From Tsukamurella sp. 8F (GTDB lineage: Bacteria > Actinomycetota > Actinomycetes > Mycobacteriales > Mycobacteriaceae): 64,000 nucleotides of DNA. A model generated the notes under the pieces. That model was not told the origin of the DNA and made no database searches. It saw only the letters and a list, made by a program, of their open reading frames with translations. Shown piece by piece: positions 17,536-17,802 of the stretch. The first letter of the stretch is position 1; each line of letters begins with the position of its first letter. Where the stretch lies: the NCBI RefSeq assembly GCF_029167375.1, contig NZ_JARFTP010000005.1, positions 1 through 64,000 of the forward strand. Direction: 5' to 3'. A program made the position numbers and the translations under genes.

Positions 17536-17802
17536 TCACCCTCCTGGTGTGGCGAAGACGAACAGCGCCATGAACGCGACGTTGATGAAGAATGCCGCCT
17601 CGACCAGACCGACCGTGATGAGGAACGGCCCGAACATCCGCTGCTGAGCCTCAGGCTGTCGCGCGACTCCGGCGATCAGCTGTGCCCCGGCCATGCCGTC
17701 GCCGATGCCGGCGCCGATCGCACCGCCCGCCAGCGTGATCCCGCCTGCCACCATCGATCCGGTTCGGACCAGCCCGTCTATGAGTGCTGGGTCGGTAGCC
17801 AT
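17536..17802 (-). CDS. atpE: Stand-alone ATP synthase subunit c (mycobacterial type)
   Basis: 88-residue two-helix proteolipid of the F0 rotor ring. It aligns along its whole length with mycobacterial AtpE, with a 7-residue N-terminal extension. Shared landmarks are GGAIGAGIGDG in helix 1, the polar loop ARQPEAQ, and the proton-carrying Glu68 in VGLVEAAF, equal to Glu61 in M. tuberculosis. Residues equal to Asp28, Leu59, Ala63 and Ile66 are unchanged; Tyr64 is Phe71 here. No other ATP synthase gene is in the window: neighbours are glycerate kinase and trpS. A ribosome site AAGGAG and a good promoter overlapping twin palindromes precede it. Confidence 0.92.
   Translation of the reverse strand: MATDPALIDGLVRTGSMVAGGITLAGGAIGAGIGDGMAGAQLIAGVARQPEAQQRMFGPFLITVGLVEAAFFINVAFMALFVFATPGG

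Follow-up and report, generated by a model that had tools for sequence, protein, structure and literature searches.

The window analysed here is a stretch of 64,000 nucleotides from Tsukamurella sp. 8F. It holds a gene for a c-subunit of the F-type ATP synthase (AtpE) that lies outside any ATP synthase operon and, as the initial annotation stated, has genes for glycerate kinase and tryptophan-tRNA ligase (trpS) as neighbours. We consider it probable, with some reserve, that this gene encodes a regulated, inducible spare c-subunit that is coupled to drug modification and that probably acts against natural c-ring inhibitors. The gene had been described as a full-length mycobacterial-type atpE, and this was borne out: the 88-codon open reading frame passes PF00137 (37.5 bits; gathering cut-off, 24) and the subfamily model NF004532/PRK05880 (127.7 bits; cut-off, 120), and it narrowly misses TIGR01260 (41.9 bits; cut-off, 43.95). 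By two curated cut-offs the product is a mycobacterial-type F-type ATP synthase c-subunit, and its assembly into a ring is predicted; the ring may be alternative or mixed, as the initial annotation proposed. Residues 9-87 align with solved mycobacterial c-subunits, such as 4v1f. In the alignment with the M. phlei c-subunit (chain 4v1f_A), Glu68 corresponds to Glu65 and Phe71 to Tyr68, which are columns 61 and 64 in M. tuberculosis numbering. The earlier statements on these two residues therefore hold, and the proton carboxylate of the second helix is present (Glu68). In the same numbering, the window protein carries the changes F54L, Y64F, and L68V. The gene lies on the minus strand, a point on which the initial annotation was silent, as it was on the palindromes described below; the plus strand at 17536-17802 gave no atpE reading.

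The assembly (4,680,862 bases, 70 contigs) encodes three c-subunits above the PF00137 cut-off, on C6, on C30, and in the window; one further match scores only 13.2 bits and falls below it. The gene on C6 is the operon copy, in the order atpB-atpE-atpF, and one ATP-synt_A match, for the a-subunit, was found in the assembly. As an operon atpE is present on C6, we rejected the possibility that the window gene is a relocated housekeeping gene. The window gene had been taken for a second c-subunit; it is indeed extra to the operon copy, but it is actually the third in the genome, C30 being another. The window-genome extra and the operon copy share 56 of 79 core residues. On C30, atpE is the last gene of an operon in which it follows genes for a TetR regulator and a glycosyltransferase (GT), with 4-bp overlaps at both joints. 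C9, a contig other than that of the window, carries a TetR-GT pair whose genes overlap by 4 bp.

The description of the window gene as stand-alone is correct in that it lies outside the atp operon, yet the gene has a rare operator in common with the distant C9 TetR-GT pair. Two 20-bp palindromes stand in tandem at the start region of the window gene, palindrome 2 being a one-mismatch copy of palindrome 1, and the 2 sites at 17812-17851 (4 matches, counting both strands) compare with 0.01 expected in shuffles. With up to 3 mismatches allowed, the whole genome contains 3 operator sites, and the sole match beyond the window gene is upstream of the C9 pair; the reversed pattern gave 0 matches in this genome. 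We counted 24 exact copies of the core TAGATC-N4-GATCTA in 16 Tsukamurella genomes, distributed over 13 loci, of which 11 precede TetR-GT pairs and 2 precede a solo atpE (in the window genome and in T. pseudospumae). T. pseudospumae JCM 13375 has both the orthologue of the window gene and a TetR-GT pair linked to the operator. The reversed core gave 0 matches in all 16 genomes. At the four loci examined with one-mismatch sites alone (L175, L179, L183, and L186), TetR-GT was absent. In Tsukamurella sp. 1534 (L043), an atpE of the window type is divergent from a TetR-GT pair, with variant palindromes between them. Palindromes sit at the gene starts of the C9 and Tsukamurella sp. 1534 TetR loci, where they are predicted to be bound by TetR. 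At least 7 GT-linked Tsukamurella loci (L036-L041 and L044) have another motif, TAGACC-N4-GGTCTA, that overlaps the start codon of the TetR gene. The palindrome search listed none at the C30 TetR, and the half-sites there were read by eye. As the most economical reading, we infer that the regulon of the C9 TetR includes the window gene, without linkage between the two. Our survey of upstream regions covered the extra loci except L081 and part of L082; it found a palindrome of the GGTC class at L141 and, upstream of the solo genes L089 and L092, a TACTAC...GTAGTA box that we take to be BlaI-like.

At least one extra c-subunit was found in 10 of the 16 Tsukamurella genomes, and none was found in the other 6. 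Seven genomes have an intact GT-linked copy, one (G014) has a broken copy, and three have a copy of the window type, the window genome having both types. The break in the G014 gene (L044, near 6435-6668) comes about two thirds of the way through the protein. A search of related genera, as the initial annotation had proposed, found extra atpE genes in Mycobacterium, Mycolicibacterium, and Mycobacteroides. All 17 named genomes that bear an extra have at least two c-subunit matches, and in the 12 of these in which the second copy was examined it is flanked by atpB and atpF, the genes that also adjoin all 33 operon-type rows that we used. In the family sample, at least 45 of 401 genomes have two or more PF00137 matches, and a search with the window protein matched 30 of the 35 such genomes outside Tsukamurella. 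Group g29, which is probably Mycobacterium, has a solo gene of the window kind in 3 of its 55 sampled genomes, and the solo genes of G265 and M. wolinskyi lie at the same place on their contigs.

TetR, GT, and atpE follow one another in this order on one strand at 26 of the 37 extra loci examined, a count that includes the broken atpE L044, the partial L101, and the near-identical pair L078/L079. The other 11 comprise L043, where the arrangement is divergent, L088 with a damaged GT, L077 with TetR only, and eight loci without a linked TetR or GT (the window, L042, L084, L089, L092, L093, L133, and L141). Two solo genes, L093 (M. wolinskyi) and L133 (G384), each lie directly downstream of a gene for a MerR regulator, and both regulators have the antibiotic-recognition domain TipAS (45.8 and 44.4 bits; cut-off, 23.8). 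At L142 and L143, a second GT gene follows atpE. The DNA similarity of L076 or L082 to L094 extends over about 2.2 kb and covers the cassette alone, which suggests that the TetR-GT-atpE cassette can move as a unit. At five Mycobacteroides-type loci, the similarity extends into the flanks. We dropped from the counts L085 and L090 (the same loci as L042 and L043), repeats of counted loci (L103-L118, L121, L122, and L168-L172), a 31-residue fragment (L095-L100), and L102 (Aeromonas, beside atpB); the extras of group g22, 22 atpB-atpE-atpF clusters, were left out of the 37.

For the comparison at the drug-site and ion-binding positions, we set 30 distinct extras (35 loci, L044 and the partial match L101 falling outside the set) against 18 distinct operon-type proteins (33 rows), in M. 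tuberculosis numbering and with L151 set aside in choosing the invariant columns. E61, L59, A62, F65, R41, and Q42 are unchanged in all 30 extras, and in all 30 at least one of F54, G58, A63, Y64, and L68, which are near the bedaquiline site, is changed. F54 is replaced by Leu in 15, G58 by Ser in 16, A63 by Thr, Val, Ser, or Ile in 15, Y64 by Phe in 20, and L68 by Val or Ile in 22. None of these replacement residues occurs in the 18 operon-type proteins (0 of 18 for Y64F), so that the window protein differs from all of them at its three changed positions while it keeps E61. One operon-type protein, L151 (G049), has A63M; Met at this position has been linked with the natural resistance of M. 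xenopi and other species to bedaquiline. A tree of 79 columns, with many unresolved forks and with L088 left out, contains three supported clades of extras: the window type with its Mycobacterium relatives, the GT-linked Tsukamurella copies, and a clade from Mycobacterium, Mycobacteroides, and further genera. The tree forces at least two changes between the labels extra and operon, and G58S is found in two of the three clades. In four sets of extras dN/dS is 0.00-0.24, and in the operon copies that differ it is 0.11-0.26; by this measure, the relatives of the window gene are under purifying selection.

The GTs of C9, C30, and Tsukamurella sp. 1534 have an EryCIII-like_C domain (44.5, 50.1, and 36.8 bits; cut-off, 31.7), and their regulators a TetR_N domain (49.8, 49.2, and 32.8 bits; cut-off, 24). 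The best NCBIfam models for the cassette GTs are those of the rifamycin-inactivating Rgt and of a macrolide GT (NF000354, TIGR01426, and NF033129), all under cut-off, and this is only suggestive of an antibiotic-modifying enzyme.

Venturicidins and oligomycins are made by streptomycetes. Resistance mutations place their site near the c-subunit carboxylate, overlapping that of bedaquiline (PMC8249445, PMC7438494; published sources are cited throughout for the passages covered). Oligomycin is selective for mitochondria, and venturicidins alone are weak antibacterials (PMC8249445, PMC7438494), so another compound is possible. In a docked model, G58, A63, and L68 are less than 2.5 A from bedaquiline; A63V, A63P, and A63M are bedaquiline resistance variants, and the resistance positions named are A63, L59, E61, I66, and D28 (PMC6541270). 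Natural resistance is found in M. flavescens, M. xenopi, and two further species, which have A63M (PMC5817190). The inhibitors that the initial annotation had brought up, bedaquiline and macrolides, are in our judgement a sensible frame for the window gene.

Within this frame, the C9 TetR repressor would keep the window gene off. Release of the repressor would come with a small-molecule blocker of the c-ring, perhaps a natural macrolide similar to venturicidin, and the derepressed cell would then make a GT that modifies the compound and also c-subunits whose outer helix is altered near the proton glutamate. These subunits would replace or dilute the sensitive ones, and ATP synthesis would continue. 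The nature of the compound, its modification by the GT, and the insensitivity of the ring are the most speculative parts of this scheme. A broader formulation, which we rate as slightly less likely than not, is that Tsukamurella, mycobacteria, and their relatives share a hitherto undescribed two-layer immunity cassette in which one drug-sensing repressor governs both an inactivating GT and a drug-insensitive c-subunit that rebuilds the ring. If so, the three clades with their recurring changes at G58, A63, Y64, and L68 would mean that this family has long been under natural attack by c-ring inhibitors.

Several observations weigh against a drug-directed spare subunit. Nine Tsukamurella genomes have an operator-linked TetR-GT pair without an atpE of the window type, and the GT would therefore work without such a partner. 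The changed positions are not significantly enriched at drug contacts (p 0.17; under a stricter definition of the set, p 0.60), since divergence extends to the first helix. The GTs of C9, C30, and Tsukamurella sp. 1534 miss the cut-offs of both Rgt (96-110 versus 800 bits) and the macrolide GT model TIGR01426 (49-74 versus 260 bits). The bedaquiline minimum inhibitory concentrations (MICs) are low in M. wolinskyi (0.031 ug/ml) and M. franklinii (0.062 ug/ml) (PMC5817190), two species in which we found an extra atpE (L093 and L081, respectively), the strains in the MIC work being named differently from the sequenced ones. Constitutive bedaquiline resistance is disfavoured by the sensitivity of these two species (PMC5817190); their MICs agree both with a switch that does not respond to bedaquiline and with the absence of any effect. 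Among solved structures, the C30 GT matches sterol glucosyltransferases best and glycopeptide Gtf enzymes next, so a lipid substrate is possible, and the highest TetR scores, none of which reaches its cut-off, are those with models for fatty-acid and choline regulators. These last two results would suit a physiological role, in which the extra subunit forms alternative or mixed rings and, during membrane or energy stress, adjusts their affinity for protons, their leak, or their fit to the lipids, while the GT modifies a lipid. The many changes in the extras at inner-helix positions 8, 11, 12, 14, 16, and 17 also speak for such a role, as do the boxes upstream of L089 and L092, since BlaI controls the ATP synthase operon (PMC12565901). 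We regard this role as unlikely, although it deserves consideration, as it does not account for the recurrent association of extra atpE genes with EryCIII-like GTs and, in two cases, with TipAS regulators, or for the change of the known resistance site A63 in 15 of the 30 distinct extras.

Being regulated and similar enough to the operon copy to enter a ring (the 56 identical core residues), the extra subunit might instead act as a brake or hibernation factor, a few altered subunits slowing or stopping the motor upon induction. All 30 distinct extras keep the proton glutamate, R41, and Q42, as expected of a working subunit, and this makes a brake very improbable. That the gene is an ordinary redundant duplicate without a special role would agree with the lack of extras in 6 of the 16 Tsukamurella genomes, with the broken GT-linked copy of G014, and with the 8 of 37 loci that lack a linked TetR or GT. 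The low dN/dS values, the operators common to the window atpE and TetR-GT pairs, and the cassette at 26 of 37 loci all argue against it, and we find this the hardest of the alternatives to credit.

The inducible spare c-subunit that we favour resembles several known systems, each in part. It is like the mycobacterial operon AtpE (NF004532; PDB 4v1f and 7jg5) in length, two-helix core, proton glutamate, and RQ loop, and differs from it in that the window gene is outside the operon, has a TetR-type operator, and is changed at F54, Y64, and L68 relative to 18 of 18 operon-type proteins. Spare-target resistance as such is already known (PMC6804068, PMC9437257). In self-resistance through an indolmycin-resistant second TrpRS or a novobiocin-resistant GyrB, a second copy of an essential target is present beside the ordinary one (PMC6804068, PMC9437257), and the same is found here, with C6 as the ordinary copy. 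The difference is that the target here is a subunit of a homo-oligomeric ring, that its gene is tied to that of a GT through a common operator or operon, and that resistance is a prediction. The cassette GTs have Rgt and macrolide-inactivating GTs as their best NCBIfam matches and share the EryCIII-like C-terminal domain, but by the cut-offs of these models they are not members. TipA-type MerR regulators with TipAS stand directly upstream of the solo genes L093 and L133 but not beside the window gene. The regulation of the ATP synthase operon by BlaI (PMC12565901) has its likeness at L089 and L092, where binding is predicted, and the TACTAC...GTAGTA box was not seen upstream of the window gene.

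The features of the window gene are collected in the table. The ribosome site that had been claimed can be read in the sequence. The promoter claim fared worse, as a scan of 17480-18050 gave 0 sigma-70-like sites, and what remains is a candidate -10 box read by eye.

Table. The extra atpE of the window and its putative control elements
Feature	Position	Strand	Basis
Extra c-subunit gene (atpE-like), 88 aa	17536..17802	minus	ATG-start open reading frame; PF00137 37.5 bits; NF004532 127.7 bits
Ribosome-binding site AGGAG (putative)	17808..17812	minus	read by eye
Operator palindrome 1, TTTAGATC-N4-GATCTAAA, adjoining the ribosome site	17812..17831		pattern search; regulator binding predicted
Candidate -10 box TATATT, between the palindromes	17830..17835	minus	read by eye, tentative; promoter scan without a site
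Operator palindrome 2, TATAGATC-N4-GATCTAAA, 20 bp from palindrome 1	17832..17851		pattern search; regulator binding predicted

The neighbouring trpS (18022-19062, plus strand) is divergent from the spare atpE. It is one of two trpS genes in the genome and is 33% identical to the other (C32). Upstream of it, a plus-strand leader open reading frame of 15 codons (17890-17937) contains two adjacent Trp codons (MDIRQAWWRLRRQPV), and the leader RNA can fold (z -1.98; 11 of 200 shuffles fold as well). Attenuators of this kind have been predicted for trpS in Streptomyces (PMC1262725). Because second TrpRS genes can be indolmycin resistant (PMC6804068, PMC9437257) and the leader is attenuator-like, the window trpS may be an attenuated auxiliary gene and another spare drug target, of the indolmycin type.

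Some further observations concern the spread of atpE-like genes. The cassette loci L078 (M. arosiense) and L079 (M. triplex) share 99.97% identity across 9450 bases, which may reflect a recent transfer or a genome mix-up, and may represent one event. Transposase-like open reading frames, judged from their translations, lie near the solo genes L084 (4251-5567, M. hubeiense) and L133 (3145-4074, G384). The 22 extra atpB-atpE-atpF clusters of g22 genomes, which are probably Nocardia (L144-L150 and L152-L166), are of mycobacterial type, and the other c-subunit of these genomes is of a different type. No atpA match was found in the examined flanks of the 22 clusters, and they are possibly Fo-only modules. 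Six Mycobacterium genomes have an identical 31-residue atpE-like fragment (L095-L100), in each case on a short contig, and the contigs of M. nebraskense and M. gordonae are both 4844 long; a mobile element or shared contamination could explain it. In some of the genomes G031, G055, G174, G208, G210, G325, G345, and G350, there is another match to PF00137, of about 60 bits and covering profile positions 1-60; it often lies within a long open frame, and the window protein did not match it. Carriage on a plasmid was considered and rejected: one plasmid record matched, and it holds an ordinary atp operon (L188, NZ_LR134452.1, T. tyrosinosolvens "plasmid 10"), so that it is probably a piece of chromosome named plasmid. 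The search for phage carriage gave no phage match, PADLOC gave no match to an anti-phage defence system for the C9 TetR, the C9 GT, or the window AtpE, and the four weak Rfam matches, all far under their gathering scores, were taken as chance.

Among the matches listed from titles and abstract starts of the open-licence literature, there was no report of a spare ATP synthase c-subunit or of a TetR-GT-atpE cassette, and a multispecies study of mycobacterial resistance does not discuss a spare c-subunit in the passages covered (PMC13246000). A spare c-subunit and a GT under common switches, as predicted from these genes, look like a means of surviving rotor-jamming antibiotics that has not been described before. 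The extra protein and the true bedaquiline target may be confounded in databases. Eight natural variants have been called non-resistance associated (I11L, L15T, N33A, A34Q, A45S, G58S, A63T, and L68V; PMC6541270). All of these except L15T, 7 of the 8, are residues of the Mycobacteroides-type cassette protein L080, and none of the eight is present in the two operon-type copies of the Mycobacteroides group that were checked (L120 and L123). We infer that an extra protein entered the alignment of this bedaquiline-resistance predictor. The target of bedaquiline is the c-ring, and a natural, regulated spare c-subunit, if real, would be an inducible bypass in some non-tuberculous mycobacteria and their relatives. 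It would also point to the natural compounds behind its selection, and the function of mixed rings would become testable. If the two-layer cassette exists as outlined, the extra rings, pure or mixed, would be a natural bypass of the bedaquiline target.
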